A stretch of DNA of 64,000 nt from Shinella curvata (GTDB taxonomy: Bacteria; Pseudomonadota; Alphaproteobacteria; Rhizobiales; Rhizobiaceae). The notes beneath the pieces were generated by a model, which was not told the origin of the DNA, did not search any database, and worked only from the letters and a program-made list of their open reading frames with translations. Below, one piece after another: positions 44,174-63,933 of the stretch. Numbering within the stretch: the first letter of the stretch is position 1; each line of letters begins with the position of its first letter. Position numbers and translations under genes: made by a program. Where the stretch lies: positions 992,001 through 1,056,000 of the forward strand of contig NZ_JALJCJ010000002.1 in assembly GCF_022899935.1 (NCBI RefSeq). The letters are read 5' to 3'.

Positions 44174-45295
44174 ATGGCGATCTTCACTGCTATCGGCACG
44201 GCTATTGCCGGCGCGCTTTTTGCCGGCTCCACGCTGGCCGCGTCTGTCATTGCCGGCGGTCTGGCTTTCGCGGCCCGGATCGGCCTGTCGTATCTCAATC
44301 GCCCGAAGAAGCGGTCGTATTCTGCCGTCCAGGCCGAGACGCAGTTCGGCGGCGATGTGCCGGTCGGCACGATCTTTGGCACGTCGAAGACCAAGGGCCA
44401 GCGGACGTTCTATGCGAAGTGGGGGCCGGGCAACAAATTCAATGCCGAGGTCTTCTTGCTGGCGAACGGCTGGTGCGACGGCCTGGAGCCCTATGTCTAT
44501 TTCTACGGCCAGAAGCAGACGCTGGTCGAGCGCCCGATCATCGGCAACGAGGTGGCGCACTATGGCGTCGAGGGCTTCCTTGCCGGCGGCAATCACCTGT
44601 TCTCGATCCGCTTCTACGATGGGCGTCCTGACCAGCTCGTGGACCAGAAGCTCGTCGACGATAGCGCATCCCTCGGCCAGACGTGGAAATCGACCAGCGT
44701 CAATGCCGGCATCGCCTATGTCGTGGTGGAGCGCATCTTCAAGCCGGAGCAGTTCGACAAGGGTAAGCCCGATATCGAGTTCGTGCTGCGCGGCCTGCGC
44801 GAGTACGATCCACGCAAGGATACGACCGTTGCCGGCGGCTCCGGGTCGCAGCGGCTCGACGATCCCGCAACGTGGGTTCACACGCTCAATCCGGCCGTCC
44901 ATCGGTTCAACTATCAGCTTGGCCTTCGCGCGCTGGTCTCCGGCCGCACGCTGATCGGCGAAGGCAAGAGCATCGGGCAGCTGGACCTTGCCACCTATTT
45001 CGTGGCGATGAACGTCTGTGACACGCTGCGCCTCGACGACAAGCCGACCTATCAGTGCTCGCTCGTCGTCGGTGGCGAGGACGATCATACCGAGATCCTG
45101 CGCGAGTTCGACGATGCGATGGCCGGGTACGGCCTGAACCGGCGCGGCCTGTCGGGCATCATTGCCGGTGCGCCGCAAATCCCGGTGATGGAAATCACTG
45201 CCGATGACATCCCGGCCGACCGGGCGAAGGAAGTGCAGTTCAGGAAAAGCGCGTTCGACCGGTCTATTCACACTTCCGGCCAAACAGTAGCCTAA
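44174..45295 (+). CDS. Central (J-like) tail protein, N-terminal part, cut by element B
   Basis: 373 residues up to a stop inside element B. N-terminal hydrophobic segment, then tail-tip hub features (AETQFGGDVPVGTIFGTSKTKG, AYVVVERIFKPEQFDKGKPDIEFVLRG). Such proteins usually exceed 800 residues. Native coding ends at FDR (45262); the last ten residues SIHTSGQTVA come from element B. Coding resumes in frame at 63924 with FDRYNHMSGQ. The truncated product should be non-functional for receptor binding or tip closure. Confidence 0.88.
   Translation: MAIFTAIGTAIAGALFAGSTLAASVIAGGLAFAARIGLSYLNRPKKRSYSAVQAETQFGGDVPVGTIFGTSKTKGQRTFYAKWGPGNKFNAEVFLLANGWCDGLEPYVYFYGQKQTLVERPIIGNEVAHYGVEGFLAGGNHLFSIRFYDGRPDQLVDQKLVDDSASLGQTWKSTSVNAGIAYVVVERIFKPEQFDKGKPDIEFVLRGLREYDPRKDTTVAGGSGSQRLDDPATWVHTLNPAVHRFNYQLGLRALVSGRTLIGEGKSIGQLDLATYFVAMNVCDTLRLDDKPTYQCSLVVGGEDDHTEILREFDDAMAGYGLNRRGLSGIIAGAPQIPVMEITADDIPADRAKEVQFRKSAFDRSIHTSGQTVA
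45254..45263. repeat. Left attachment core of element B
   Basis: TTCGACCGGT, identical to the right core. It lies in frame in the tail gene as Phe-Asp-Arg. To its right, element DNA reads TCTATTCACACTTCCGGCCA. Confidence 0.85.
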
Positions 45296-45314
45296 GATGC
45301 TGAAAAGATTGATG

Positions 45315-45340
45315 AAAGCCGCTCCGTTTGGGGCGGCTTT
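45315..45340. terminator. Terminator just inside the left end of element B
   Basis: AAAGCCGC (45315-45322) pairs with GCGGCTTT (45333-45340), followed by CG and TATTTG. It would stop late transcripts of prophage A from entering element B after the truncated tail gene. Confidence 0.75.
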
Positions 45341-45419
45341 CGTATTTGTGTGTGTTGATTTTGGATGTAGGTAAATCAAGCACTTAGTTAGCGTTCGTCG
45401 GGCTTTGCGGCTGCTCGAC

Positions 45420-45448
45420 GCGACAACAATGCGACAACGCCGCGACAA
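45420..45448 (+). repeat. Three GCGACAA direct repeats at 11-bp spacing
   Basis: GCGACAA occurs at 45420-45426, 45431-45437 and 45442-45448, exactly one helical turn apart. The third merges with the AAGGA ribosome site of the AlpA-like gene at 45458. Likely binding sites for integrase arms or for the AlpA-like protein. Confidence 0.75.
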
Positions 45449-45457
45449 GGAACCAAC

Positions 45458-45685
45458 ATGGATACGACTGAAAAAGCGGACCTCCTTTACGGGGTTCCGG
45501 CCATCTCTGCATACCTGAGCCTCACCGATCATCAGGTCTACAACCTCCACCGACGCAAGCTGCTCCCCACTTTCAAACTCGGGAAGATTGTTTGCTTGCG
45601 TCGCTCCGATGTCGGGCCGTGGCTTGACCGGCAAGCGCGTGCCGCTACCGAAGGCAGGGAGGGCGGCATCGATGACGCCGGTTGA
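45458..45685 (+). CDS. AlpA/excisionase-like regulator of element B
   Basis: 75 residues. The winged helix-turn-helix of the HTH_17 type is visible as VPAISAYLSLTDHQVYNLHRRKLLPTFKLGKIVCLRRSDVGPWL over residues 14-57. AlpA-like proteins act as excision factors or activators in phage satellites. First gene of element B, with direct repeats immediately upstream. Confidence 0.75.
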   Translation: MDTTEKADLLYGVPAISAYLSLTDHQVYNLHRRKLLPTFKLGKIVCLRRSDVGPWLDRQARAATEGREGGIDDAG

Positions 45686-45977
45686 AGAATTCCGCAAGTT
45701 CGTCGCGATACACCGAGAGTCCGGCAAGCGGCAGGCTGATCAGTTCTTTGCCGAGAACGGCGAGGCATTAGCCACGGCCGATGCCATCGAGGTCGAGAAC
45801 CTGACCACGACCGCCGTGGGGCAGATCATTCTTGGCCTCGATATGTTTTTCGAAGAGAAGGGGCTTGCGAAGAATAGGGCGATCAACGACTGCCTGAAAC
45901 GCGCCACGGTCGCCGGCTTCCTCCTGCGCCTGGCTGCGCTCTACACCGCCGACGGCGGGGAGGTGGGGCATGCCTGA
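45672..45977 (+). CDS. Hypothetical protein
   Basis: 101 residues from ATG 45672 (begins MTPVEEFRKFVAIHRESGK). Helical; contains VGQIILGLDMFFEEKGLAK. Overlaps both neighbours slightly, so it is part of one operon. Function unknown. Confidence 0.6.
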   Translation: MTPVEEFRKFVAIHRESGKRQADQFFAENGEALATADAIEVENLTTTAVGQIILGLDMFFEEKGLAKNRAINDCLKRATVAGFLLRLAALYTADGGEVGHA

Positions 45978-46200
45978 GAAGCATATCGCCACCATCCCCA
46001 AAAACTCGACCGAGGAAATCCGCGTCACCCTCGGCAGCTTCAAGGGCCACGACCTGTTCAATGCCCGCGTTTGGTTCGAGGGTGAGGACGGCACCATGCG
46101 GCCGGGGAAGTCCGGTATCGCCTTCAAGCTCGACAAGCTGCCGGCATTCGCCGAAGCGGTTGCAGCCGCGCTTAAAGCGGCGGGAGGCGCCCATGGATAG
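45970..46200 (+). CDS. PC4/p15-like ssDNA-binding protein
   Basis: 76 residues. The pattern HIATIPKNSTEEIRVTLGSFKGHDLFNARVWFE, then MRPGKSGIAFKLDKLPAFAEAV, over residues 5-60 is the PC4/p15 transcriptional-coactivator fold (beta sheet then helix), which binds single-stranded DNA. In phages such proteins are tied to replication or transcription. It is near the O-like gene. Confidence 0.7.
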   Translation: MPEKHIATIPKNSTEEIRVTLGSFKGHDLFNARVWFEGEDGTMRPGKSGIAFKLDKLPAFAEAVAAALKAAGGAHG

Positions 46201-46351
46201 CGCGCGCCGTATCGAGGCGGCTCGGTGGGTCCTCTGGGGCGACGACCGCGCCCCCATCGTTCAACAGGTCAAATCTAAATTCGAACTGACGGCTCTTGAG
46301 GCCTGCGAGGTCATCAAGAAAGCCAGCTTGATCAAAGCGAGGGCGACATGA
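46193..46351 (+). CDS. Small hypothetical protein
   Basis: 52 residues from ATG 46193, preceded by GGGAGGCGCCC. Helical (begins MDSARRIEAARWVLWGDD; contains ALEACEVIKKASLI). Resembles short helix-turn-helix-like phage proteins; function unknown. Confidence 0.55.
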   Translation: MDSARRIEAARWVLWGDDRAPIVQQVKSKFELTALEACEVIKKASLIKARAT

Positions 46352-46782
46352 GCAAGGCCGGGAAGTTCTCGATGGTCTCCCGCACCATCTGGCGGTCTGA
46401 ACGGTTTCGCGCCTTGGAGAGCCACCGCGCGCAGTTGCTGTTTTTCTACTACCTGACCTGTGAGCATCAGAACGCCCTCGGCTGCTTCCGCCTGCCGGAC
46501 GGCTACGCGATTTCGGATCTCGGCTGGACCCTGCAGGAGTATCAGGTTTCCAAGGCCGAATGCATCGGCGTCGGCCTGATCGACTGCGACGACGAGACCC
46601 AGGAAATCCTCGTCGTGAAGTGGCTAGAGAACAACCCGCCGCAGAATCAGAAACACCTCCAGGGGCTCATCAAGGCGAACCTCGCCATCGAGAGCGACGA
46701 CTTCCGCAACAGGCTCGCCGACGTGCTCTGCGCGATGGCCGGACAAGTCCAGCCAAGCCCCGAACCTCGGAGACCCTATTGA
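46348..46782 (+). CDS. Replication-initiator-like protein (O-like), possibly truncated
   Basis: 144 residues. Begins GKFSMVSRTIWRSERFRALES, with YLTCEHQNALGCFRLPDGYAISDLGW and IGVGLIDCDDETQEILVVKWL, a winged-helix region seen in phage O-like replication proteins. It ends at TGA followed at once by TAG. The same frame then stays open for 42 more codons rich in KETETETD, as in the usual C-terminus of such proteins, so the gene may be prematurely stopped. Confidence 0.65.
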   Translation: MSKAGKFSMVSRTIWRSERFRALESHRAQLLFFYYLTCEHQNALGCFRLPDGYAISDLGWTLQEYQVSKAECIGVGLIDCDDETQEILVVKWLENNPPQNQKHLQGLIKANLAIESDDFRNRLADVLCAMAGQVQPSPEPRRPY

Positions 46783-46964: not shown

Positions 46965-47225
46965 ATGAAAAACGGAAGCGATAGCGCCGAGGGCGAAGCC
47001 ATGTCCTCGCAAGCGAAATGGAACAACGCGCATCCTTTGGAGATGCTGGCGCACCAGTACGTGCGCTCGGCGCTGAAAAAGGGGCTCTTGAACAAGGAGC
47101 CATGCGAGGTTTGCGGAGCTGAGAACGTCGATGCCCATCACGACGACTACAGCCGGCCGGGTGTCGTCCGCTGGCTCTGCCGCCTACATCATCGCCACCA
47201 CCACATGCAGGAGAAAGCCGTATGA
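46965..47225 (+). CDS. HNH-type endonuclease-like protein
   Basis: 86 residues. PCEVCGAENVDAHHDDYSRP followed by VRWLCRLHHRHHH gives the two CxxC-like pairs and histidines of a compact HNH/zinc domain found beside phage terminase and portal genes. It may assist cos cleavage during packaging or nick DNA. Overlaps the next gene by 4 bp. Confidence 0.7.
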   Translation: MKNGSDSAEGEAMSSQAKWNNAHPLEMLAHQYVRSALKKGLLNKEPCEVCGAENVDAHHDDYSRPGVVRWLCRLHHRHHHMQEKAV

Positions 47226-47449
47226 CCCGCCCCATCCTGACACCTGACGCCCTTGACGCGATGCTTGAGGGGAAATTGTTGTCCAAGCCTGAAAAACTTT
47301 GGGGGGCGCCGGCAATTGCGGTTGCTCTCGGTGTTTCCGAGGACACCGTGAGAGAATGGGCAAAGGATCCGGAAGTCCCGATCTATCGGCCGAAAGGGTA
47401 TTTTGCCCGACGGAGTGAACTGGAAATATGGCTTAGGCGGAAACCCTAA
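47222..47449 (+). CDS. Helix-turn-helix DNA-binding protein
   Basis: 75 residues. LWGAPAIAVALGVSEDTVREWAKDPEVPIYRPKGYFARRSEL over residues 27-68 reads as a winged helix-turn-helix like phage Nu1 or MerR-type proteins. Could recognise element DNA for packaging or regulate head genes. Convergent with the next, leftward gene. Confidence 0.65.
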   Translation: MTRPILTPDALDAMLEGKLLSKPEKLWGAPAIAVALGVSEDTVREWAKDPEVPIYRPKGYFARRSELEIWLRRKP

Positions 47450-47865: not shown

Positions 47866-47942
47866 AATTCCCCCGATCCGCCGATATTTTCCTAGTTTTC
47901 CCCAGTGGCGGTTCAAGGTGAATACTGCGCATATCCTGGTGA

Positions 47943-49199
47943 ATGAGGATATGGCCTTTTTACCGCGCCGAAAAGAAAGCACTGACCGACGAGCAAATCC
48001 TTGAGATGCTTGGCACCGGCGCCCAGACGCATGCCGGGGTCGCGGTCTCCGCCGAAACGGCATTGCGGACACCGGCCGTTGCTGCCGCCGTGCGCACCAT
48101 CTCCGAGGCCTGTGCCTCGCTCGCCGTCAAAGTGGTTTCAATCGCGGCCGACGGCACCGAGACGGAAGCCCCGAACCACGAAGCCGCAAAGCTCCTGAAG
48201 GGCGATGCGAACGACTGGCAGAGCGGGTTTGAGTTCATCCGCTCTATCGTCGTCGACGCCCTCTGCCGAGACCAGGGCGGCCTTGCCCGCGTCACGCGCT
48301 CCTCGGATGGCCGGCTCCTCGAAATCATCCGTCCGCGCCCCGGCTTCATCAACGTCGATTACCCGGATGACAGCCTCCAGCCCCGCTACCGCGTCAACGG
48401 CATCGTGCAGCCGGCCAGCGATATCATCCACCTTCGCGGCACCTTCGACAAAGCCCCGCTCACCCTTTGCCGCGAAGCCATCGGCGTTGCCGTCGTCATG
48501 GAGCGCCACGCCTCTCAGCTTTTCGGCCGTGGCGCCCGCCCTGGCGGTGCCGTCGAAATGCCGAAGGGTATCGGCGAGGACGCGATCAAGAAGGTCATCG
48601 CCGGCTGGAACAAGACGTTCGGTGACGGTGGCGGCGCCGGCAGGACCGCGTTCCTCTACGACGGCGCCACCTTCAAGCAGATGACGCTTTCCAGCGTCGA
48701 TGCGCAGTTTCAGCAGCTCCGGCTTTTCCAGCTTCAGGAAATCGCGCGCGCCTTCAACATCCCGGCCAGCCTCATCGGCGATCTGACCCGCGCCACCTGG
48801 TCCAACTCAGCCGAGATGCAGCGCCAGTTCCTTCAGCTTTGCCTTGAGCCCTGGCTTCGCGCCCTCGAAAGCGCCCTCGGACGCGCGCTCTTCACCAAGG
48901 AAGAGAAGGGCAAGTTCGCCGTTCGCTTTGATCGCGACGACTTCACGAACGTGGATCTCACGGCGCGCGCCACCGCGATCAACAGCCTTGTCGCCTCCCG
49001 CGTCATCAACCCCAACACCGGCCGCGCTTGGCTCGACCTCCCGCCGTACGACGGAGGTGAGGAGTACGCGAACCCGAACACCGGCGCCAGCCAGCCGGGC
49101 GTGGGTCACAACGGCGGCCCGCCTCTCGACCGCGATGAAGGCGGCAACCCGAAAACCCCGAAGCCCGACGACGATAAGGACCAGACGGATGAACCTTGA
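47943..49199 (+). CDS. Portal protein, HK97 family
   Basis: 418 residues. Family segments: PAVAAAVRTISEACASL, DWQSGFEFIRSIVVDALCRDQGGL, IIHLRGTF, VVMERHASQLFGRGARPGGAVEMP and IPASLIGDLTRATWSNSAEM. C-terminal low-complexity tail. It forms the dodecameric portal of element B's own capsid and is unrelated in type to prophage A's DUF1073 portal. Confidence 0.9.
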   Translation: MRIWPFYRAEKKALTDEQILEMLGTGAQTHAGVAVSAETALRTPAVAAAVRTISEACASLAVKVVSIAADGTETEAPNHEAAKLLKGDANDWQSGFEFIRSIVVDALCRDQGGLARVTRSSDGRLLEIIRPRPGFINVDYPDDSLQPRYRVNGIVQPASDIIHLRGTFDKAPLTLCREAIGVAVVMERHASQLFGRGARPGGAVEMPKGIGEDAIKKVIAGWNKTFGDGGGAGRTAFLYDGATFKQMTLSSVDAQFQQLRLFQLQEIARAFNIPASLIGDLTRATWSNSAEMQRQFLQLCLEPWLRALESALGRALFTKEEKGKFAVRFDRDDFTNVDLTARATAINSLVASRVINPNTGRAWLDLPPYDGGEEYANPNTGASQPGVGHNGGPPLDRDEGGNPKTPKPDDDKDQTDEP

Positions 49200-49581
49200 A
49201 GACATCCAGGCCAACGTGATCGATCAGGATCGCGGCCGTAAGCTTGAAATCGTGGATCCTTGGGAGGGCAAGCCCACGGGGATGACACTGTGGATCGCCG
49301 GCCCGGATAGCGAGACGCAGCGCAAAGCCCGCATCGCCATGATGGACGAGCTTGCCGACCGCGCCGAGCCGGACGGAGCGATCAAAGCCGAGCACCGGGA
49401 AGCAGCCCGCTTGAACTGCCTCGCCAAGACGGTCCTGCGCTGGGAAGTCCAGCACGAAGGCTCTGATCTCGCTTTCAGTCACAAGAACGTCCTGCGCGTC
49501 TTGCGCGCCGCCGACTGGCTTCAGGCTCAGGTCGATGCGTTCGCCGGCGACCGCCGAAACTTCGCGCCGGAGGGGCTGTGA
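49189..49581 (+). CDS. Hypothetical head-region protein
   Basis: 130 residues from ATG 49189 (begins MNLEDIQANVIDQDRGRKLE). Contains PTGMTLWIAGPDSETQRKARIAM, a segment common in small proteins encoded between HK97-type portal and protease genes. Exact function unknown. Confidence 0.7.
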   Translation: MNLEDIQANVIDQDRGRKLEIVDPWEGKPTGMTLWIAGPDSETQRKARIAMMDELADRAEPDGAIKAEHREAARLNCLAKTVLRWEVQHEGSDLAFSHKNVLRVLRAADWLQAQVDAFAGDRRNFAPEGL

Positions 49582-50084
49582 TGGACCGGCTGTTCTTCGA
49601 AACCAAGATGATCGCCGACGACGCCGGCCTCGTCTCCGGCATCGCGTGGAAGTTCGGCACGCCTGACCGCGTTGGCGACTGGATCGAGCCAGGCGCCTTC
49701 AAGGGTGCTTCCATGCCGATCCCCATGCTTTTCGGCCACGACATGAATGATCCCATCGGCACCTGGGACGTGGCGACCGAGAAATCGGACGGCCTGCACC
49801 TGACCGGCAAGCTCCTCGTCGACGAGGTAAGCCGCGCGCGCGAAGTTCGCGCCCTGGTCAAGTCCGGCGCGGTCAAGGGCATCTCAATCGGCTTCATCAC
49901 TAAGAAAGCCGCGGCCCGCACTGGCGGCGGCCGCATGATCAAGGCCCTCGAATTTCTGGAAGCGTCCCTTGTGACGATCCCCATGCATCCCGGCGCGAAA
50001 GTCACGTCGGCGAAATCGGCAGTCCAGGCGATATCGATCGCCGCTGCCATCAACCGCGCGGCAGCGCAAATCGGAAGGAACTGA
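49581..50084 (+). CDS. Prohead protease, HK97 family
   Basis: 167 residues from ATG 49581, overlapping the upstream stop (TGATG). Serine protease features: GHDMNDPIGTW (His) and VKGISIGFITKKA (Ser in GIS), with the third residue in the EASLVTIPMHPGA segment. It matures the capsid encoded next. Confidence 0.88.
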   Translation: MDRLFFETKMIADDAGLVSGIAWKFGTPDRVGDWIEPGAFKGASMPIPMLFGHDMNDPIGTWDVATEKSDGLHLTGKLLVDEVSRAREVRALVKSGAVKGISIGFITKKAAARTGGGRMIKALEFLEASLVTIPMHPGAKVTSAKSAVQAISIAAAINRAAAQIGRN

Positions 50085-50085
50085 C

Positions 50086-51324
50086 ATGCACCATGTCACG
50101 AAACGCGCGCTGCTCAACAGCGTGGCCATTGAGCGAAAGGGCGAGGAAGACGATCCGGTATCCATCGTCACCAAGTCGCTCGAGGATCTTCAGAAGACCG
50201 TGGACGAGCGGCTGAAGAAGGTGGAGGGCGGCGCCGAAATCAAGGCGCTTATGGACCGCATCGACGAATTCGAGAAGAAGGCGAACCGCCCCGGCTCGAA
50301 GACGACGGCAGAGGAGCAGCAGGAGATCGAGCGCAAGGCTCTGTCCTCCTATCTCCGCTCCAACAGCTCGGCAGCGATCGAGGAGGCCGGCGGCTCATTC
50401 GAGGTGAAGGCGGCATCCTCCGACAATGACGCTTCGGGCGGCTATTTCGTCCTGCCGACCGTGGACCTGTCCATCCGCACGCTGATGACCGACCTGTCAC
50501 CGCTGCGCGGCCTGGCTGAAGTCGTCAGCATCTCCACCGACAAGTACGAGCGCTTCTATTCGCTCGGCAAGCGCGGTGCGCAGCGCGTCTCGGAACGCGA
50601 CGACCGTCCGCAGGACACGGCTCGCCCCGAACTGATCAAGCACAGCTATCCGGTGGGTGAATACTACGCCGCCCCGGCTGCAACCCGGCATCTGCTCGAC
50701 GACGCCGCCACCGACATTGCTTCCTGGCTCGTGAACAACGCCACCCATGACTTTGCCGAGACCGAGGGCGAGGACTTCCTTCGCTATACCGGTGTCGATG
50801 GCTTCCCGCGCGGCCTCCTCGATTACGGCACCACGAACGAGAAAGATTTCGTCCGCGCTTGGGGTAAGCACCAGTACGTGCCGGCCGGTCATGCTTCGGC
50901 ACCGACCGATACGCAGCTCGTTGCGGCCGTGATCAAGCTGGTTGCCGCGCTGCGCAAGCCCTACAAAGGCAACGCCAAGTTCCTGATGAACAGCAATACG
51001 GCAGTGCGCCTCCGGGCTATCGTCGATGAAGTTGGCCGCCGCCTTTGGGCGCCGACGGGCAACCTCATCGAAGGCGTCGAGCACCCGCTGCTTGGCTACT
51101 CCGTCGAGATCGACGAGGGCATGCCCGATATCGCGGCCGGCGAGCACCCCATCGCCTTCGGCGACTTCCGCCAGGGCTATGTGATCGTCGATCGCCAAGG
51201 CGTCCGCATCAACCGCGACGAACTCACCCAGAAGGGCCGGATCATCTTCGACGTCTATAAGCGCGTCGGCGGCGGTGCCGGCGACTTCAACGCGATCAAG
51301 TTCCTCAAGGTCGCAGCGAGCTAA
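50086..51324 (+). CDS. Major capsid protein, HK97 fold
   Basis: 412 residues. N-terminal coiled-coil delta domain (about 20-75), then a likely protease cleavage region before DNDASGGYFVLPTVDLS. Shell segments include EYYAAPAATRHLLDDAATDIASWL, FLMNSNTAVRLRAIVDEVGR, and the C-terminal AFGDFRQGYVIVDRQGVRINRD. Distinct from prophage A's DUF2184 capsid, so B can build its own head. Confidence 0.92.
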   Translation: MHHVTKRALLNSVAIERKGEEDDPVSIVTKSLEDLQKTVDERLKKVEGGAEIKALMDRIDEFEKKANRPGSKTTAEEQQEIERKALSSYLRSNSSAAIEEAGGSFEVKAASSDNDASGGYFVLPTVDLSIRTLMTDLSPLRGLAEVVSISTDKYERFYSLGKRGAQRVSERDDRPQDTARPELIKHSYPVGEYYAAPAATRHLLDDAATDIASWLVNNATHDFAETEGEDFLRYTGVDGFPRGLLDYGTTNEKDFVRAWGKHQYVPAGHASAPTDTQLVAAVIKLVAALRKPYKGNAKFLMNSNTAVRLRAIVDEVGRRLWAPTGNLIEGVEHPLLGYSVEIDEGMPDIAAGEHPIAFGDFRQGYVIVDRQGVRINRDELTQKGRIIFDVYKRVGGGAGDFNAIKFLKVAAS

Positions 51325-54801: not shown

Positions 54802-56389
54802 GTGGGTCTATGACGGCTCGGAAATACCCGACCCGCAAGGCTTCGGCGAGCGCGCGGTGAAGTTCCTGCGCATGCTGAAGCATCCGAAGTCCGGCAAGCC
54901 GTTCCAGCTCGACCCTTGGCAAGAGCGCGTCGTGCGCCGCATCTATGGCCCGCGCAAGGAAGACGGAAGCCGGATCGTCCGAACCGTCGTGCTTCTCCTG
55001 CCGCGCGGCAACCGCAAGACCTCGCTGTCGGCGGCGCTGGCGCTGCTCCATACAATCGGCCCGGAGCGCGTGCCGGGCGGCGAAGTCATCACGGCCGCCT
55101 CCGATCGGAAGCAAGCGCGCATCGCCTATGAGGAAGCGCGCGGCCTCGTCTGGGCGCACAAGAAGATTGCGCCGAAGGTCCGCAACCTCGATTACCGCAA
55201 CAAGCTCTATTATCCGACCGCCCGCAGCTTCTGCGAGGCGATCAGCGCCGACGCGGGCACCCAGCACGGCCGTACGCCGGTTTTCGTTCTGGCCGACGAG
55301 CTGCACGCCTGGAAGAAGCGGGACCTCTGGGACGTGCTCCGCTCCGGTCTGGTCAAGACGGCCGGAAGCCTGCTGGTCGTGGCGACGACGGCCGGGCGCG
55401 GCCGGGAGAACATTGCCTGGGATATCGTGGACGATGCGCGGCGCGTGGCGCGCGGCGAGGTGGACGATCCGTCCATCCTGCCGGTGCTTTTCGAGGCGAC
55501 CCCCGATGATGACTGGCGCGATGAAGAGGTGTGGCGCCGGGTGAACCCCGGCCTTGCTCACGGCTATCCCGATATCGAAGGCCTGCGCCAGATGGCATTC
55601 GAGGGCGAGCGCCGCATCGGCGACCGCGAAGCCTTCAAGCAGCTCAACCTCAATATCTGGCTGGATAGCACCGATGACCCGGCCTTTGACATGGAGGCGT
55701 ATGACGAGTGCGCCGGCGCGGTCGAGCTAATCGACCTCGAGGCGGAGCGCCGGCCGTGCTGGCTTGGCGTCGATCTTTCGTCCAGCAAGGACCTTTCCGT
55801 CATCGTCGCCGCGTGGCCCGATGGGGATGAGGGTTACATCGTCCATCCATGGTTCTTCTGCCCGACAGAGAACCTTCGCGACCGTCAGGACCTTTCCGGC
55901 GCCTCCTACATCGCCTGGGCTGAGGAAGGCCACATCGAAGCAACCCCCGGCAACGTGATTGATGTTCGAAGGGTCGAAGCTGTCATTCGTGAACTCTGCG
56001 CCCGATTCAACGTCATGGAAATCGCGTTCGACCCGGCGCTTGCCGCGACCACCCTTGCGAACCTCAACGAGGACGGCTTTCCGGCCGTCGAGATGCGGCA
56101 AGGCCCTCTCACGATGATGCCGGCGCTTCAGGAGCTGGAGCGCGTTGTCATAGGGCGACGCCTACGCCACGACGGGCACCCCGTCTTGCGCCTCTGCTTT
56201 TCGAACGCTGAGGCTCAACGCAACACGCAGGGGCATATCGTACGCCTCACCAAGCCCAAGCTGTGGATGTCGATTGACGGCGCCGTCGCGGCGGCAATGG
56301 CGGTGCGGCGCGCGGCGGCCGGTGGCGGCGGTTCCTTCTACGACAACGCAGGCGATGACTTTGAAAACTGGGCTTTTGCGGAGTGCTGA
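54773..56389 (+). CDS. terL: Terminase large subunit of element B
   Basis: 538 residues. Walker A-like LLLPRGNRKTSLSAALAL (about 75-92), Walker B VLADELHAWKKRDLW (about 170), ATPase coupling VVATTAGRG, and nuclease segments WLGVDLSSSKDLSV (about 325) and VMEIAFDPALAATT. This is the large HK97-type terminase, different from prophage A's 443-residue enzyme. B therefore packages its own DNA. Confidence 0.92.
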   Translation: MAKTRATFPEWVYDGSEIPDPQGFGERAVKFLRMLKHPKSGKPFQLDPWQERVVRRIYGPRKEDGSRIVRTVVLLLPRGNRKTSLSAALALLHTIGPERVPGGEVITAASDRKQARIAYEEARGLVWAHKKIAPKVRNLDYRNKLYYPTARSFCEAISADAGTQHGRTPVFVLADELHAWKKRDLWDVLRSGLVKTAGSLLVVATTAGRGRENIAWDIVDDARRVARGEVDDPSILPVLFEATPDDDWRDEEVWRRVNPGLAHGYPDIEGLRQMAFEGERRIGDREAFKQLNLNIWLDSTDDPAFDMEAYDECAGAVELIDLEAERRPCWLGVDLSSSKDLSVIVAAWPDGDEGYIVHPWFFCPTENLRDRQDLSGASYIAWAEEGHIEATPGNVIDVRRVEAVIRELCARFNVMEIAFDPALAATTLANLNEDGFPAVEMRQGPLTMMPALQELERVVIGRRLRHDGHPVLRLCFSNAEAQRNTQGHIVRLTKPKLWMSIDGAVAAAMAVRRAAAGGGGSFYDNAGDDFENWAFAEC

Positions 56390-56392: not shown

Positions 56393-58372
56393 ATGGCTGA
56401 TGATGAAGAACGCTTGATCGTGCTGCTTGAGGCAAGGATCAAGGACCTCGAAAAGAACATGGCGAAGGCGAGCGGCATCACCGGGAAGACCTATCGCGAA
56501 ATGTCCCTCGGCTCGAAACGGGCGACCGACCAGATGGAGGAGCACATGATCCGCTCCACCACCCGGATAAACCAGGCGCTCGCCACGACTTCCACGAAAA
56601 TTGGGGCCTTCGGCAAAGCCATGATCGGCGGTTTCGTCGGCGGCATGGTCGCTGGCGGGTTTACTGGCATCCTCTCCCAGGTGCATCAGGTCGCCGACGC
56701 GGTGGCTGAAGTCGGCGACCAGGCAAAGATGGCAGGCCTCTCCACCAAGGTTTTTCAGGAGTGGAAGTTCGTCGCCGAGCAAGCCCGTATCCCGATCGAT
56801 GCCATCACAGACGGCTTGAAGGAACTGCAGCTGCGCGCCGACGAGTTCGCCGTCACCGGCAAAGGTTCGGCGGCCGAAGCATTCCAGCGCCTCGGCCTGA
56901 CGCCGCAGGAGATCAAGGAAAAGCTGAAAGACCCGTCCGAGCTGCTGCTGCTCATCATCGAGCGCACCCGGCAGATGAAGGACACGGCGGCCGGTATCCG
57001 CATCTTCGATGAACTCTTCGGCGGCACCGGCGGCGAGCGCATGGTCGCGCTGCTGGAGCAAGGCGAGGGCGCAATCCGCGATCAGATTCAGGCGGCGAAT
57101 GAGCTTGGCGTGATCATGGATGATCAGCTTATCCAGAAGGCGGCAGAGGTAAACCGCAAGTTCGATGCCATTTCCATGACCATCGGCGTGAAGGTGAAGA
57201 GCGCGCTCGTATCTGTCTCCGACACCATCTGGGAAATGATTGAGGGCTTGAAGGACTTCGAGGAACAGCGCAGCTCGCTTCTGCAGAAGTCCCAGGCCGA
57301 CATGGGAATGCAGCGCGTCGATCTCGAAAACGAGCGAATGCGGATCGCTGCCGGCGATAGCGCGAACCTACTTTACCGAAATCCAAACGGCCCGGCGGCG
57401 AAGGGGCGGATGGATGAAATCGATCGCGAGCTTGCGAAGCTGAACGAGCGCGACGCCCAAATCGCAGGCATCCTCTATAAGCGGACTGATGCGCGCGAGC
57501 GAACAACGGATCGCACCTGGACACCACCCGAGTACACCGCGCCGGCCGACAGTGGCGGTAAAGGCGGGAAAGCTCGCGCCGCATCCATTGCTGCCGCAGA
57601 GCGTGAGCGCCAAGCGATCAAAGACCTCATCGCCGAACTGGAGGAAGAGCTTCGCCTGGTCAACGCCAGCGATGCGGAGAAGCGCGCCGCAGCCGCATCA
57701 AGGCAGGCCGGCGCGGCTGCAACCGAGAAAGAGCGTGATCAGGTTGTCGCCCTCACCGAAGCGATCCACAAGGAAGAGGAGGCCAAGCGCCTGGCCGAGG
57801 AGCGCACGCTTCTCTATCGCGACCTGACCCGCTCGGCGATCGATGATCTTGCCGGCGCGCTGGAAGACGGCAAAAGCCTTTGGGAAGCCCTTGGCGACGT
57901 GGCGGTGAACAGCCTCAAACGCATCGCCGATACTGTCCTCGACGATGTGCTCGACAGCATTTTTCAGGTGAACAACGCGGCGGGCGGAAGCGGCGGCGGC
58001 CTGCTCGGCGGGCTGTTTAGCGGGATCTTCGGCGGTGGAGCCAAGGCCGATCCGTGGGCCGGGATGCGCATGCCTTCCTTCGACGGCGGCGGATACACTG
58101 GAATGGGTTCTCGCTCGGGCGGGATCGATGGGAAAGGCGGCTTCCCGGCCATCCTTCACCCGCGCGAGACCGTGACCGACCACACCCGGTTCAACCAGGC
58201 TTCCGCGGCATCCAGCGCCGCTGCCCCGATCTCTCGTTCCGTCATCCAGATCACGCTTTCGCCCGAGCTGCTGGCCCAAGTGCTTGATCAGGCGAAAGAC
58301 CAGACTGTGCAGATCGTCCGGCAAAACAACGTGGACCTCGAAAACGTCCGTCAGAATGGAGGGAATTACTGA
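56393..58372 (+). CDS. Tail tape-measure protein of element B
   Basis: 659 residues. N-terminal part has VLLEARIKDLEKNMAKASGI and FGKAMIGGFVGGMVAGGFTGI; the middle is helical and unlike prophage A's. From about residue 480 on it parallels A's tape measure (LAGALEDGKSLWEALGDVAV; GGLLGGLFSGIFGGGA; DPWAGMRMPSFDGGGYTG; GFPAILHPRETVTDHT). The C-terminus of a tape measure contacts the tail tip, so the shared end suggests assembly on A's tip complex. Confidence 0.88.
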   Translation: MADDEERLIVLLEARIKDLEKNMAKASGITGKTYREMSLGSKRATDQMEEHMIRSTTRINQALATTSTKIGAFGKAMIGGFVGGMVAGGFTGILSQVHQVADAVAEVGDQAKMAGLSTKVFQEWKFVAEQARIPIDAITDGLKELQLRADEFAVTGKGSAAEAFQRLGLTPQEIKEKLKDPSELLLLIIERTRQMKDTAAGIRIFDELFGGTGGERMVALLEQGEGAIRDQIQAANELGVIMDDQLIQKAAEVNRKFDAISMTIGVKVKSALVSVSDTIWEMIEGLKDFEEQRSSLLQKSQADMGMQRVDLENERMRIAAGDSANLLYRNPNGPAAKGRMDEIDRELAKLNERDAQIAGILYKRTDARERTTDRTWTPPEYTAPADSGGKGGKARAASIAAAERERQAIKDLIAELEEELRLVNASDAEKRAAAASRQAGAAATEKERDQVVALTEAIHKEEEAKRLAEERTLLYRDLTRSAIDDLAGALEDGKSLWEALGDVAVNSLKRIADTVLDDVLDSIFQVNNAAGGSGGGLLGGLFSGIFGGGAKADPWAGMRMPSFDGGGYTGMGSRSGGIDGKGGFPAILHPRETVTDHTRFNQASAASSAAAPISRSVIQITLSPELLAQVLDQAKDQTVQIVRQNNVDLENVRQNGGNY

Positions 58373-59031
58373 TGCCCGATCCTATGGAACTTCCGGCAGT
58401 CCTTTGGGCCGCTTGCCAGTTTGACCCGGTTGACCCTTCCGACGTGAGCATGATGGAACGGCGTCGCTCGGAAATCATGTCGAGCATGACCCCTTACTGG
58501 CGCGCATCGTTCAAGACGGTGCCGCTGGAAGAGGTCGAGTACGGCCGGTTTGATGCTTTCGTGATGGAGTCCGGCCCGCGCGGCTCGCCCTTCATCGGTT
58601 ATGACCTGTCCAGGCCGCGACCCATCGCGCACGACGAGGGGAAGCCCTTGTCCGGCACGAAAGCGGGGGGCGGGGCATTCGACGGCCGTGCTGTCCTCGA
58701 TACCATCACCGACAGCCGGAACGTCGTCGTCTCAGGCCTGCCGGCGGGCTTCAAGCTCTCGGCCGGTGACTATGTCGAGTTCCGCATGACCCTCCTGACG
58801 CGTTCGCTCCACCGGATCACGGCCGACGCGACCGCCAATTCCAGCGGCGTTGTCTCGCTGAGGATCATGTTCGGGCTCGACACGCAGAACTTCAACACCG
58901 CCGCCGTGGTGGATTTCGAGAAGCCCGCGACGGTGATGATGATCGATCCGGGCAGCGTGCAGGCGCCGAAATCGTGGGGCGACCGCTCGGGCTCGTTCTC
59001 GGCAACCGAGGTGTTCATCTATGAACCTTGA
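58372..59031 (+). CDS. Dit-like distal tail protein of element B
   Basis: 219 residues, start overlapping the tape-measure stop. Roughly half identical by eye to prophage A's protein at 42506-43159, with shared runs SGTKAGGGAF, SGLPA-FK-SAGDY-EFRM, IMFGLDTQNF and VMMIDPGSV-APKS. The last recognisable tail-tip gene in B; A's next three tip genes have no counterparts here. Confidence 0.8.
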   Translation: MPDPMELPAVLWAACQFDPVDPSDVSMMERRRSEIMSSMTPYWRASFKTVPLEEVEYGRFDAFVMESGPRGSPFIGYDLSRPRPIAHDEGKPLSGTKAGGGAFDGRAVLDTITDSRNVVVSGLPAGFKLSAGDYVEFRMTLLTRSLHRITADATANSSGVVSLRIMFGLDTQNFNTAAVVDFEKPATVMMIDPGSVQAPKSWGDRSGSFSATEVFIYEP

Positions 59032-59386
59032 AAAGCTCCTCTGCGCGGAACTGAAGCGTCAGCTTGAGGCGAAAGGTGCCTGTGTCATGCAGGTGCCTGC
59101 CGGCGGCGAACTACTCTGGCGTTGGTTTCTGGACCTCAGCCGCACTCGTCGCGCCGGCCTCGCCGGGCCTGAGCCGATCAGCTACGGCGAGATTGAGGCC
59201 TATGCGCGCTCAACCTGCTGGCCCGTGGAACCGCGCCACATCGCCGTCCTGCGCGCCATGGATGAAGTGTGGATGGAATACGCACGGGAAAAGACGACAC
59301 CTGCACCCGAGGGCGTGAAGACCTTGCCGCCAATATCCACTACGCCGCTCACCGCTGGCATGCTCGATGTGATGCTTGGCGGTTAA
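59021..59386 (+). CDS. Tail-chaperone-like or tail-associated protein
   Basis: 121 residues. The segment RRAGLAGPEPISYGEIEAYARSTCWPVEPRHIAVLRAMDEVWM over residues 45-87 resembles the C-terminal part of phage GT-type chaperones, including the T-like frame of prophage A. B has no other chaperone candidate. Its position after Dit, not before the tape measure, is unusual. Confidence 0.6.
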   Translation: MNLEKLLCAELKRQLEAKGACVMQVPAGGELLWRWFLDLSRTRRAGLAGPEPISYGEIEAYARSTCWPVEPRHIAVLRAMDEVWMEYAREKTTPAPEGVKTLPPISTTPLTAGMLDVMLGG

Positions 59387-59425: not shown

Positions 59426-59821
59426 TTAATTGCTGGTTGCAAGCGTTCCGACGTAGTCGCAAAGCCACTTTGGTGCCTCTCGGCCCAAGTTCTGAACGGC
59501 CATTATCGCAATCATTTGCAGCGTTGCCGCAACGAATGGGCTCCGCGGATCAGGCGATGCGGTCAACGATATGACGCCGTGGGCGAGCTGGCGATCAATG
59601 TGCTTCGTGCTGCCTTCACAAGGGCCTAAATGGTACCAGGTTATAGCGCTTCTTTTGGCTGCGGCGAAATCCTTTGCTGACAAACCCGACTGCTCTCCGA
59701 TGGTGTCGAACGCTCCGGAAATGGCGGCAAGCGCGATTGAATCGTTTTGTTGGACAAATCCCGCGTGCGCGGGCGCGGTAGAAGTTAAGAGCACGCCCAT
59801 CAGAATAAAGCGCATGATCAT
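59426..59821 (-). CDS. Secreted cargo protein of element B
   Basis: 131 residues, or 129 from the second Met. N-terminal signal peptide (MRFILMGVLLTSTAPAHA-G). The mature part is mostly helical with two Cys residues (GPCEGS, WLCDYV) that could form a disulfide. No known family. Last gene of a three-gene leftward operon overlapping its neighbour by 4 bp. Confidence 0.65.
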   Translation of the reverse strand: MIMRFILMGVLLTSTAPAHAGFVQQNDSIALAAISGAFDTIGEQSGLSAKDFAAAKRSAITWYHLGPCEGSTKHIDRQLAHGVISLTASPDPRSPFVAATLQMIAIMAVQNLGREAPKWLCDYVGTLATSN

Positions 59822-60150
59822 ACTCTTCGTCCTTTGCCGCTGGGCGCACCAGTCATTCGAAAAAGCGTCTCGCTGTACGGAAGGCGCAGAAGAATCCTTC
59901 CTTTTTCGGCGATGGCTGCAGCTTCACGACCCCGGCAGAGTAGGCTGACGCCTCCCTCATGTCGGTTGCAGATTGCGTCGGGGCTATCGAGCAGGTTTAC
60001 GCTGCTGAGGCCTGCGACAATCGCCGTCACCCCGTCGGGCAACGCGCCGATGGGTTGGATGACAATGATACGGACGCCTCCTAGCCAAACAAAGCCCGTT
60101 GCAATAAGCCCGACTAGGAGAGTTAGGGGCAGCAGAATCGATTTGATCAT
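59818..60150 (-). CDS. Membrane-anchored cargo protein of element B
   Basis: 110 residues. N-terminal transmembrane helix (ILLPLTLLVGLIATGFVWLGG, about 5-25), then a periplasmic or cytoplasmic domain with two Cys (DAICNRHEGGVSLLCRG). Partner gene of the secreted protein downstream. Unknown function; exclusion or envelope modification is conceivable. Confidence 0.6.
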   Translation of the reverse strand: MIKSILLPLTLLVGLIATGFVWLGGVRIIVIQPIGALPDGVTAIVAGLSSVNLLDSPDAICNRHEGGVSLLCRGREAAAIAEKGRILLRLPYSETLFRMTGAPSGKGRRV

Positions 60151-60815
60151 CCTGGTCTAATAAATCCCTGTTTCGCCCTCTCGACCCACCACAGAAAATC
60201 TTTTCCTTTGTCTGTGATTTCTATTTTCTCTTCGTGCAAAACCGCGAGTTCTTGAGATAGCAAGTATGCTCGCCATCGTTCAAATCCGATTTCAGAAAAA
60301 AATTCGCTGTCCTTCGACAGGACGCTCTGGGTGAAATACAACTCGCTGTCACCCTCACCGCGTGGGCTTTTCGTGAGTTCAAGAAGGAAGTCAATTTGGG
60401 AAGCAAAAATGCTGGCAAAAATATACTCAAAGTTTGCGACAAGGCGACTTTCCGCAACAGCTCGTACTAGCTCGACTTCGCGGTACTCGGGAGCAATCCT
60501 TTCGAGGCGCGCTTTAACATCCTTTTCAAGTTCGACGACCGTAGCCAATCTGTCGGGCGACCCGTCAATGCTGGCGTTTGCCTTGATTGGCTGAGCTTGG
60601 GGTTGTTGGAAAAGAGCGCGAGTGGGGCCGACCTCAATGACATGGGGGATACGCTCGCGAATCTGCTTTCGAAATAGGAATACGAGCCAAAAAATTGCGG
60701 CCGGCCACGCGATGCCCTTTAGAAGGTCGAAAGCTGCTTTTGCCCATTCGAGCCATTGCACTGACGATAGATTTAGTCCCGCCCAAAAATCCCAGAACCC
60801 CGCGCAGGTTTCCAT
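60147..60815 (-). CDS. Membrane protein with winged-helix-like C-terminus
   Basis: 222 residues. A transmembrane helix at about 37-48 (IAWPAAIFWLVFLFRK), then a long cytoplasmic domain with VVELEKDVKARLERIAPEYREVE, an aromatic helix LVANFEYIFASIFASQIDFLLEL, and an end (EIEITDKGKDFLWWVER) like a winged helix. First gene of the leftward cargo operon in element B. Possibly a defence sensor or effector; no family recognised. Confidence 0.6.
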   Translation of the reverse strand: METCAGFWDFWAGLNLSSVQWLEWAKAAFDLLKGIAWPAAIFWLVFLFRKQIRERIPHVIEVGPTRALFQQPQAQPIKANASIDGSPDRLATVVELEKDVKARLERIAPEYREVELVRAVAESRLVANFEYIFASIFASQIDFLLELTKSPRGEGDSELYFTQSVLSKDSEFFSEIGFERWRAYLLSQELAVLHEEKIEITDKGKDFLWWVERAKQGFIRPG

Positions 60816-61258
60816 TCACCCCTCCGAATCTACCCTCGCGAGCAACGGTGGCAGAGGTCGATAATCAACGCAAGCATCCACCCTTTGGCGAGGGTGTGCT
60901 TGAATGTCGGTATCAAATCAGGCAAGTTGTCCGTGGGCGTGAGAACCCGGACCGAGATAGACCGCACACAATTCCTTGGCAGGAATTGCCCTGACGCTTG
61001 GCGGCGTTGGGCGGCGGTTGAATGAGGAGTGCGCTTCGCAGTTCCTCGACGCGCGTGCTTGGCGGCACGGATGCGACCCGACCTTTATGGCCGGGGTGCG
61101 CCGTTCTGTCCAGAGGGAAACCTTAAAAACGTCGCGCCAGTCTCTCGGCTGGTTCTCACCCCCCGGCTGCCGGTCTGTCACCGGCATAGGCTGATCGATC
61201 TGTGAGAAGACGATACGCCGCCGGCCGTGAGAAGCCGGTTCGATCCGAGAGAACCACC
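60816..61258. other. 440-bp divergent intergenic region in element B
   Basis: No convincing gene. It contains a hairpin (AAGCA-CACCCT with AGGGTG-GCTT, 60872-60901) and a perfect inverted repeat AATTCC/GGAATT (60970-60987). Promoters for the leftward cargo operon and for the rightward genes from 61259 should lie here. A short frame starting with TTG (60976) is open to 61194 but looks non-coding. Confidence 0.5.
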
Positions 61259-61840
61259 ATGGAACACTACCCTGATATTCAGAGGCGTGACGGCACGCTG
61301 TTTTTCATTCCCCACGGCAACCGCGCCGCGATCGCCATGTCGATTGAACGGCTTATCGACTTGCTCGACGCGGCCGAGGGCGACCCCGACCTTGAAGCGA
61401 ACGGTGACGAGCGCGACCAGTCGTATGCCGAAGGCGGGGACACAGGCACTAACCCGCTCGAAGACGACGAGGACGGCAGCGACGACGAACCGACCCTTGG
61501 CGCATCGAACGACTACGTTTGCCGGTCGCAAGAGGACTGGCCGCGCGTCTGGGGCCAAGACGAATGCGAGGTCGAGAACGAAGACGGCGGCGACATTCTT
61601 GACGAGCCGCACGACGACGATGAACTCGACCAGAACGGCGACGAGACGGATTATTGCGGCTCGGAAGACGAATGGCGCCCTTACGAGCCGGACGCGCTCT
61701 ACGACGGCACCGGCTCGATCTTGGCGGCTGAGATGCTGCTTCGCGCCAAGACACGCCGGGAGCCTTACAGCGAGATTATCGGCACTCGGCATCACCTTCT
61801 CAAAGACGGCAGCATCTTCACCACGTTGGTGCCGCGATGA
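61259..61840 (+). CDS. Highly acidic protein of element B (possible DNA mimic)
   Basis: 193 residues from ATG 61259. The first 50 residues look globular (DIQRRDGTLFFIPHGNRAAIAM; LIDLLDAAEGD). Residues about 45-150 are extremely rich in Asp and Glu (EDDEDGSDDE, DEPHDDDELDQNGDE). The C-terminus is again ordinary (GSILAAEMLLRAKTRREPYSEI). Proteins with such charge can mimic DNA and block restriction or other DNA-binding enzymes; no direct homologue recognised. Confidence 0.7.
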   Translation: MEHYPDIQRRDGTLFFIPHGNRAAIAMSIERLIDLLDAAEGDPDLEANGDERDQSYAEGGDTGTNPLEDDEDGSDDEPTLGASNDYVCRSQEDWPRVWGQDECEVENEDGGDILDEPHDDDELDQNGDETDYCGSEDEWRPYEPDALYDGTGSILAAEMLLRAKTRREPYSEIIGTRHHLLKDGSIFTTLVPR

Positions 61841-62082: not shown

Positions 62083-62219
62083 AGATCATCGCCCTCATGA
62101 TTGCAATCCTCCTGCTGAAAGCCGCCAAGTGCATCGCCTACGCGAGCGAATTTCTCGGGGACTGCGCGCTGTGGATCATCGACCAATGCGACCCCGACAG
62201 TCAGCGTAAAGCAAGCTGA
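62079..62219 (+). CDS. Very small hydrophobic protein
   Basis: 46 residues from ATG 62079 with GGGGAGCGGTC upstream (begins MKIIALMIAILLLKAAKC). N-terminal hydrophobic helix, then a short Cys-containing tail. Could be a small membrane protein; unknown function. Confidence 0.55.
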   Translation: MKIIALMIAILLLKAAKCIAYASEFLGDCALWIIDQCDPDSQRKAS

Positions 62220-62277
62220 TCAACCGGCCCGGCTGCATCCGTGGCCGGGCCTATCGTCTCAAAGAAAGGATATTTCA

Positions 62278-62619
62278 ATGCCAGTGGCATCCCTCCCGGA
62301 AGGTGTAACCTTCACAATCACATCCATGGAGATCGTCAATGCACCGCGTGAGCGAGAGAATGGCGATATCGGCATAGCGTTCTTCGACCTATCCCTCGGC
62401 TTCATGGAGATCTGGAACTGCCGGCTCGTTCTGGAGAAGCGCGGCTATTGCCGTGTCGAGTTCCCCAAGCATGCCTTCAATGGTGAGGAGCGGTCGCTTT
62501 ACTGGCGCGCAGGCCTCAAGCCGATCCTCGACAAAGCCATCCCGGTCTATACCGCCATGGGCGGCGAGCATGCACCGGCTATCATCAACAACGTCAGAAA
62601 AGCAGAGCAGGAGGTGTAA
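62278..62619 (+). CDS. Hypothetical protein
   Basis: 113 residues (begins MPVASLPEGVTFTITSMEIV). Beta-rich first half (NGDIGIAFFDLSLGFMEIWNCRLVL), then RVEFPKHAFNGEERSLYWRA. Preceded by AAGAAAGGATATTTCA. A GC-rich hairpin (62226-62251) lies between it and the gene before. Ends 2 bp before the integrase start. Confidence 0.6.
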   Translation: MPVASLPEGVTFTITSMEIVNAPRERENGDIGIAFFDLSLGFMEIWNCRLVLEKRGYCRVEFPKHAFNGEERSLYWRAGLKPILDKAIPVYTAMGGEHAPAIINNVRKAEQEV

Positions 62620-62621
62620 CC

Positions 62622-63905
62622 ATGGCTTCAGTTCGCAAACGGGTATGGACACACAAGGGGGTGGAGCGGACAGCTTGGGTTGTCGACTACACCGATCAGT
62701 CCGGCAAGCGCCGTATGCTCACGGAAAAATCCAAGAAGGATGCTGACCGCGCTCGAATTCGTATTGAGGCGGATATAGAGGCGGGGGTTCACACCCATAA
62801 GAGCGAGAGCGTCACGGTCGCAAAGGCGGTCGAGGAATTCCTCGGAAACTGCGAACGGCGGCGGAAGGTTGGCGACCGCATGACCGGACAGACGCTAGCG
62901 TCATACCGGTATGTTCTGGAAAACCATGTCGTCGCGTCAATCGGCGCACTGCGCTTGTGTAACCTTGAGGCCCATCACGTCCAGGCAGTGATTGATGAGA
63001 AGATTGGCGATTTTTCCCAGACGACGGTTAGGAAGATCCACGACGTTCTTCATTTGCTGCTGGCGTATGCCGTCAAGAAGAAGTGGGCCAAGCGGAACAT
63101 TCTCAGAGACGATCCGGTCTCTTTACCTCGTGGAGGAAAGCGACGCGTCTATGTCCCTAGCAAAGCCGAATTGAAGACGCTCATCAGCGCTGCGTTGGAC
63201 CTCGAAAACGAGCAGGCGCTGACTTGGGTAAACAGGCTCGTATTCGTGTGCCTGGGAGCTTTCGGCGGTTTACGTAAGGGCGAGATAGCAGGCCTCCAGT
63301 GGTCGGACGTGGATTTTGACAAGGAAGTGATCCACATCCGCCATAGCCAGAGCTATCACGATGGGCTCAAGGAGCCGAAGACGCAAGCCGGCGTGCGCGA
63401 CGTCCCGATGTCGGCGCCAATCCGCTTTGCACTGCTGGAGGTTATTCGGTACTGGCAAACGCAAAACGCCGAACGGTGGAACCGCGACTACCACGATATC
63501 ACCCTGCGGAAGGCAAAGCTCCGCTCCTTTCTCCGAAAAGATGAAGAGCCGGACTTGGAGAATCTGCCCTCTGGCCATGTTCTCGTCACCAAAATCGGGA
63601 AGCCCATCACCGTCAACCAGAACAAAATGTTCTGGACACCATTGATGAAAAAGGCGGGACTGATGGTTGGCGATCGACCGTTATTTAGCCCCCATGCGCT
63701 ACGCCACGCAGCGGCAAGCCTCTTTATTGAAAACGGCCTCCCTGCGATCAATCTTAAGACAGTCATGGGGCACTCGTCGGTGACAATCACGTACGACGTT
63801 TATGGCCATCTTTTCCCGGAAGATGACCGCCTGCGGCAGGCCTCGGCAGCGATCGCAGCGGATCTCGGCGCGGCAATGACGCGGCAAACGACGCTACTAA
63901 ATTGA
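62622..63905 (+). CDS. int: Tyrosine-recombinase integrase of element B
   Basis: 427 residues. Full catalytic set: R218 (GGLRKGE), K253 (PKTQAGVRDVP), H358-A-L-R361, H384 (MGHSS) and nucleophile Y394 (YDVYGHLF). The N-terminal arm-binding-like domain (VWTHKGVERTAWVVDY) and SAM-like core-binding domain (about 60-160) are present. Its stop lies 18 bp before the right attachment core, so it belongs to element B and should catalyse excision that repairs prophage A's tail gene. Confidence 0.93.
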   Translation: MASVRKRVWTHKGVERTAWVVDYTDQSGKRRMLTEKSKKDADRARIRIEADIEAGVHTHKSESVTVAKAVEEFLGNCERRRKVGDRMTGQTLASYRYVLENHVVASIGALRLCNLEAHHVQAVIDEKIGDFSQTTVRKIHDVLHLLLAYAVKKKWAKRNILRDDPVSLPRGGKRRVYVPSKAELKTLISAALDLENEQALTWVNRLVFVCLGAFGGLRKGEIAGLQWSDVDFDKEVIHIRHSQSYHDGLKEPKTQAGVRDVPMSAPIRFALLEVIRYWQTQNAERWNRDYHDITLRKAKLRSFLRKDEEPDLENLPSGHVLVTKIGKPITVNQNKMFWTPLMKKAGLMVGDRPLFSPHALRHAAASLFIENGLPAINLKTVMGHSSVTITYDVYGHLFPEDDRLRQASAAIAADLGAAMTRQTTLLN

Positions 63906-63923
63906 TTTAGCTGCATAAAATTC

Positions 63924-63933
63924 TTCGACCGGT
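63924..63933. repeat. Right attachment core of element B
   Basis: TTCGACCGGT, identical to 45254-45263. The following sequence ACAACCACATGTCCGGCCAG resembles the element-side sequence at the left junction at about two thirds of positions. Confidence 0.85.

Follow-up and report, generated by a model that had tools for sequence, protein, structure and literature searches.

The window analysed here, a stretch of 64,000 nucleotides from Shinella curvata, covers bases 992001–1056000 of a 1.07 Mb contig (NZ_JALJCJ010000002.1) in a genome of 6.07 Mb in total. It contains an element of 18.67 kb, here called B, which splits the J-type tail-tip gene (J) of a phi2LM21-like prophage, here called A, at a 10-bp repeat. 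Element B is likely to be a helper-embedded phage satellite, and it probably takes its tip from prophage A, the virus whose gene it blocks. The borrowing of the tip is considered probable because B carries a nearly complete set of particle genes without a recognised tip and because related elements are seated in other late genes. The first-pass annotation of this DNA had described a phage-like element inside another phage; the insertion stands, but the description undersells B, whose features agree with a helper-embedded satellite, a kind already described (PMC10111431).

The J frame that opens at position 44174 reads ...RKSAFDR up to 45262, then passes into foreign codons and meets a stop at 45293–45295. 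The 10-bp sequence TTCGACCGGT, found at 45254, recurs at 63924 in the identical codon phase, as the first-pass annotation had noted, and beyond 63924 the J frame continues as FDRYNHMSGQFTSIEAM, open for 1070 aa and ending past the window (base 3136 of the next contig stretch, L003). Its further claim that the two parts are halves of one gene calls for related uninterrupted genes, and these were sought and found. In the intact J (1530 aa) of a genome of the same genus (G014), the left fragment corresponds to residues 1–362 (95% identity) and the right fragment begins at residue 361 (71% over 967 columns), while the J of phi2LM21 passes the site without a break (RKSAFDLFNHLSGQ). Among the viral relatives of the left part (the best 80 of 114, minus the window’s own record, leaving 79), 77 are open past the site, one leaves the contig end, and one has an early stop. 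Since the G014 gene joins residues 362/361 and 77/79 relatives are open, the junction is, judged by these alignments, a precise site-specific insertion within one gene. Precise, in-phase breakpoints, together with the same design in late genes of other genomes, make an assembly join unlikely. B contains no replacement J coding sequence, and the left part runs into the stop at 45295; it follows from the sequence that no full-length tip can come from A while B is integrated, as had been stated earlier.

The core repeat is modest when compared with shuffled regions, in which the mean longest match is 8.2 and the maximum 13 (n = 200). The 20 bases right of the core match at 13/20 positions between the two ends, and nine of the approximately 18,650 20-mers of B score at least 13, this one among them. 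Against the commonest J site of the relatives, the B sequence right of the core matches at 22/30 positions.

The gene content of B was assessed by comparing 32 open reading frames (ORFs) with PHROGs (E 1e-3 or 1e-2) and, in part, with Pfam (Table 1). The integrase and the AlpA-like gene lie at opposite ends of the element, as noted in the first-pass annotation, and the structural genes and the integrase are co-oriented with J. An endonuclease gene is located between the DnaD-like loader and the excisionase-type helix-turn-helix (HTH) gene, and two small ORFs separate the acidic protein from the integrase. No match to hub, tip, endolysin, holin, or primase families was obtained in PHROGs among the 32 ORFs, no tail peptidase was recognised in B, and the Bro family is absent from the ORFs scanned; HTH proteins are present, none of them typed as a repressor. 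The earlier view of B as a parasite of its helper holds to the extent that B looks helper-dependent: its distal tail protein (DIT) is close to that of A, and the scan recognised neither a hub or tip nor a lysis gene or repressor. The three reverse-strand genes gave no match in Pfam or PADLOC; one of them recurs in the related satellites L135 and L136. PADLOC, run on 10 proteins for defence genes, gave one weak match (E 0.0025), the HNH protein.

The portal of B has ten relatives in IMG/VR besides the window’s own record, and these were analysed over their full record length, except for 224 bases in one. The block from portal to chaperone is common to the ten, with losses in G437. J, the DUF6950/peptidase protein, and the DIT of A or phi2LM21 had no match in these ten at E 1e-2, nor did B’s own DIT as a query; the hub queries (A, phi2LM21) matched one of the ten, G436, and distantly. 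The chaperone gene is found in 10/10 and directly follows the tape measure gene in 7/10; the gap between the two holds one 119-aa ORF in G442, an unclear 0.7 kb in G437, and a DIT-like frame (by eye) with the distant hub-like protein in G436. Because no DIT query matched the ten relatives, B seems to have added an A-type DIT. A tRNA gene was detected by ARAGORN on six of the ten contigs; in G435 and G437 the element lies at the record end, with tRNA-Ser adjoining the integrase, and in G437 it appears degraded (no match to the major capsid protein). These two records, of 75–76 kb, were considered as candidate nested prophages and rejected, as no A-type phage surrounds the element. In an order-wide set of 397 genomes, 24 had a match to the portal of B at E 1e-60, the best being G217 (63%).

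These data bear on a reading in which B is a small temperate siphophage that needs no helper, entered J by chance, and has a tip protein that escaped recognition. The presence of terminase, head, tube, tape measure, and DIT genes agrees with it, and the ORFs at 59426–62619 have no known function. However, the hub, receptor-binding tip, and lysis genes of a complete temperate phage were not found among the 32 ORFs, the ten relatives have no J match and only the one distant hub match, and kin of the integrase are located in late genes of several other genomes. This reading is therefore thought unlikely. A further proposal is that B is a domesticated regulatory switch that grounds A to the advantage of either the bacterium or A itself. 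Integration does abolish the full-length tip, but a packaging and head/tail set under family-wide purifying selection would be needless for a switch, and the proposal is very improbable. For six structural genes, dN/dS is about 0.04–0.32 in 22 of 24 gene pairs, with dS saturated in two. By this measure the structural genes of the B family are under purifying selection, so that tiplessness is not simple decay.

Comparison of B with A suggests heads that are at most distant kin and tail ends that are close. The best PHROG families differ for TerL (979 in A, 9 in B), portal (146 and 12), and capsid (264 and 10), and both TerL proteins also reach phrog_2, distantly. The DIT of B has 65% identity to that of A, 63% to that of G014, and 50% to that of phi2LM21. 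Residues 1–430 of the B tape measure protein show 42–57% identity to all six satellite-family tape measures compared and 37% to that of phi2LM21, with no match to that of A at E 1e-3; its last 229 residues have 43% identity to the A protein. Within the same genome, the only other tape measure match at E 1e-30 is that of A, and the only match to the left part of J at E 1e-20 is likewise that of A. Prophage A itself extends from its probable tRNA-Leu attachment site past the window end, with one copy of the 44-bp attachment repeat at position 3708 and the other 13,075 bases (13.1 kb) beyond the window end. The composite of A and B measures about 73.4 kb, A without B about 54.7 kb, and IMG/VR holds the composite as a single virus record of 72.9 kb (window 4882 to 77813). 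Besides the DIT, the hub-position protein, the DUF6950 protein, and the split J, A encodes an endolysin. It resembles phi2LM21-like phages (MF614627) in the N-terminal part of J (67%) and in the order DIT, hub, peptidase position, J; the J of phi2LM21 is uninterrupted, whereas that of A is split. Ten ORFs of A outside the tail end, mostly late genes, were scanned, and all are open. A tRNA-Met gene lies within A at 26961–27037.

The preferred reading gains from the insertion sites of related integrases. Relatives of the B integrase were drawn from 61 related genomes, 394 family genomes, named genomes, and viral contigs; the 394 family genomes gave four matches at E 1e-55, including the window’s own. 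In six cases the split late gene could be shown with both of its halves, one of these being J in the window. The others are an HK97-type portal gene in G005 (phrog_2271, 22–104 and 101–409), a portal gene of another family in G681 (phrog_146, 24–251 and 248–586), TerL in G028 (phrog_7622, 8–100 and 87–216) and in L131 (phrog_7622, 6–93 and 85–220), and a protease-capsid gene in L106 from Microvirga lupini (phrog_617, 9–372 and 363–626). Four more loci have a right half starting mid-profile (portal in L109, TerL in L132 and L142, capsid in L139); no clear left half was found for L132 and L139 in further upstream DNA. Weak cases are L134 (E 0.038, TerL-like left ORF by eye) and L135 (by eye, no PHROG match). 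Core repeats exceeding chance length measure 16 bp in G028 and 11 bp in L106. Three related satellites, L108 (in G028), L131, and L132, are seated in TerL at or near the same place, two of them with both halves, a place which we take to be at or near the ATP-binding Walker A region. The right flank repeat of L106, TTCCTCCGGCC, resembles TTCGACCGGT of the window, although the gene is unrelated.

The late-gene integrases cluster on a tree of 41 rows, where the late-gene label requires 3 changes compared with a mean of 10.1 after shuffling (0/500 as low). Twelve rows carry this label (six on both halves, four on the right half, two weak) and 20 are labelled as host, meaning that a tRNA, or no late gene, lies beside the integrase, which is not proven for each; L111 and L136, which adjoin phage late genes, are unlabelled. 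Left out were five of 22 named-genome matches (L122 and L124–L127; weak, not Alphaproteobacteria) and 13 of 26 viral-contig matches, namely L128 (the window’s own record), L129, L130, and L137 (the same loci as L106, L109, and L111), and L144 and L146–L153 (weak or short). Five integrase matches of 29–37% (G040, G007 twice, G019, G038) were also left off; four of them have no late gene after the integrase, and the contig of G038 ends there. More distant integrases (about 27–37%) are mostly outside late genes. One viral contig of 10.8 kb, L133 (IMGVR_UViG_3300004213_000426, 1–10756), has 56-bp end repeats and an integrase sister to that of L106, and its integrase end runs directly into its AlpA end. 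It encodes capsid-like, neck, tape measure, and acidic proteins besides the integrase, its attP is directly readable, and it reads as the circular excised form of a relative of B. The idea that a satellite lacks the gene it interrupts was rejected as a general rule: G681 has a second, different portal ORF (by eye) although seated in a portal gene, and L134 has an apparent TerL of its own (by eye) beside the split helper TerL. The G681 satellite (L107) also has its own TerL and, by eye, a capsid gene. In L109 and L139, ORFs upstream of the integrase are presumably antirepressor-like, of Bro/Rha type (by eye), and recall the Bro zones of helper-embedded phage-inducible chromosomal islands (HE-PICIs).

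Several observations weigh against B as a tip-borrowing satellite of A. An unusual tip could be hidden among the three genes on the reverse strand or several small ORFs lacking a family, and the AlpA call is a weak Pfam match. The C-terminal part of the B tape measure also has 41–43% identity in the relatives G433 and G434, and a strictly A-specific tape measure was rejected for this reason. The core repeat is not clear in G005, G681, L131, and L132. Excision of B, induction of A, and chimeric particles are steps that we infer. Embedding in J could, moreover, be an accidental off-target event, because no second J-embedded element was found among the 79 best viral relatives. The last point agrees with a reading in which B is a satellite of another phage and J of A a secondary site, where B is inert and A is killed; off-target insertions and truncated helpers appear in the HE-PICI work, in the part drawn on here (PMC10111431). 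On the other hand, the sequence right of the core fits the J site, the DIT of B is closest to A-type DITs, and the A ORFs outside the tail end are open, which makes this reading improbable.

If B is a satellite helped by A, the following course of events is proposed. Upon induction of A, the composite would replicate and late transcription would run into B. The Xis/AlpA protein and the integrase would then excise B, which would restore the J gene of A. B would build its own small-genome heads and tails, and the hub and tip of A would complete the B tail; such a fit is suggested because the DIT and the C-terminal end of the tape measure of B are related to those of A. The tip of A would thus complete A and B particles alike, the cell would be lysed by A, and B would enter new cells via the A tip and integrate in J of an A-like prophage. 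Because the arrangement is in cis, no complete A tip would come from this prophage copy unless B is gone, and since excision restores the tip gene, tip production would be tied to the excision of B.

The principle of helper embedding was published in 2023 for HE-PICIs of enterobacteria by Tommasini et al. (PMC10111431), with Escherichia, Klebsiella, and Arsenophonus as hosts named in the part of the paper used here. According to that part, HE-PICIs and B alike are satellites that interrupt a late helper-prophage gene and bring no replacement sequence; both have AlpA and a tyrosine integrase, their key genes run in the direction of the late gene, and in both one integrase clade uses several late genes. 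The HE-PICI 11capE (E. coli NRG 857C) has an identity block of 10 bp, as does B. The differences are considerable. In 11capE, integrase followed by AlpA is placed at the upstream end, whereas B has AlpA upstream and integrase downstream; 11capE has primase and single-stranded DNA-binding protein genes, whereas no primase is recognised in B; and the zone order Integration-Bro-Replication-Late with primase given for HE-PICIs is not that of B. The B integrase was compared with a single HE-PICI integrase, that of 11capE; it had no BLASTP match to it at E 1e-3, is without the PF13356 arm domain present there, and falls outside the 11capE clade on the tree, where long branches make the placement unsure. 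The HE-PICI model satellites are reported to have no Phage_min_tail match, whereas B has head and tail-tube genes, and J as an insertion target was not seen in the main text of that paper; nor do the words Rhizobium, Agrobacterium, Sinorhizobium, and Alphaproteobacteria occur in the text used.

Another comparison is offered by capsid-forming PICIs (cf-PICIs), which, according to the excerpt of PMC10690885 consulted, rely on the helper for tails. Like them, B has its own capsid, protease, portal, connectors, HNH protein, and TerS/TerL; unlike them, it also encodes a tail tube, tape measure, terminator, DIT, and chaperones and seems to be without only hub and tip. The Streptomyces phage satellites MulchRoom and MiniFlayer, treated in the same excerpt, share with B their own capsid and packaging genes but have virulent helpers, late-gene embedding is not mentioned there, and the tail of MulchRoom is thought by the authors to be that of the helper (PMC10690885).

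Table 1. Positions of the features of helper prophage A, its split J gene, and element B in the window
Feature	Position	Strand	Remark
tRNA-Leu(taa), probable attachment site of A	3664..3748	-	44-bp repeat
A integrase	3834..4913	-	PF00589 match (G000:C12:995894-996379)
A TerL, portal, protease, major capsid protein, head morphogenesis	28440..36863	+	PHROG matches
A tape measure protein	40693..42513	+	
A distal tail protein (DIT)	42494..43159	+	65% identity to B DIT
A hub-position tail protein	43156..43746	+	phrog_11779 / phrog_2048
A DUF6950 protein, usual tail peptidase position	43646..44167	+	start codon uncertain
Left part of A J-type tail-tip gene	44174..45263	+	phrog_5616 1-369; 95% to G014 J 1-362
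attL core TTCGACCGGT	45254..45263	+	
AlpA/HTH_17-like Xis candidate of B	45458..45685	+	weak, under Pfam cut-off; recurs in related elements
PC4-like protein of B	45970..46200	+	
DnaD-like helicase-loader type protein of B	46348..46782	+	
Second excisionase-type HTH protein of B	47222..47449	+	phrog_66
B portal	47943..49199	+	
B tail assembly chaperone family match	49192..49581	+	
B head maturation protease	49578..50084	+	
B major capsid protein	50086..51324	+	
B HNH endonuclease	51722..52078	+	
B major tail (tube) protein	52075..52557	+	
B head-tail adaptor, neck, tail terminator, head closure	52908..54376	+	
B TerS and TerL	54373..56389	+	
B tape measure protein	56393..58372	+	N part satellite-family type, C part 43% to A
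B distal tail protein	58372..59031	+	65% to A
B tail assembly chaperone	59021..59386	+	Phage_TAC_18
Three B accessory genes, no assigned function	59426..60815	-	phrog_37309 (unknown function) for one
Acidic protein B27	61202..61840	+	recurs upstream of int in related elements
B tyrosine integrase	62622..63905	+	
attR core TTCGACCGGT	63924..63933	+	
Right part of J	63924..64000, on to base 3136 of next contig stretch (L003)	+	

In the open-licence PMC literature, no report was found of helper-embedded satellites in Hyphomicrobiales or Rhizobiaceae, nor of any satellite that encodes a tail tube while lacking a tip. As far as this search reaches, what would be new is a Hyphomicrobiales lineage with an integrase unlike that of 11capE and a tube-bearing satellite without a recognised tip. 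It has somewhat better than an even chance of being true that B represents a “tip-stealing” class of satellites, a whole siphovirus minus hub and tip with its tail end matched to the helper, here locked in the helper tip gene so that the excision which frees it yields the missing part, and that late-gene embedding arose independently of HE-PICIs in an integrase lineage of its own within the Alphaproteobacteria. The finding points to helper embedding outside enterobacteria, and the strategy may have arisen more than once because the B integrase does not match the HE-PICI integrase compared. B would be an intermediate in the range of satellites that leads from capsid-stealing through tail-stealing to stealing of the tip only, and it offers a naturally occurring case in which the fit between tail tubes and tips can be studied. 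Caution is also advised, since the state of a prophage gene that looks “broken” may be reversible.

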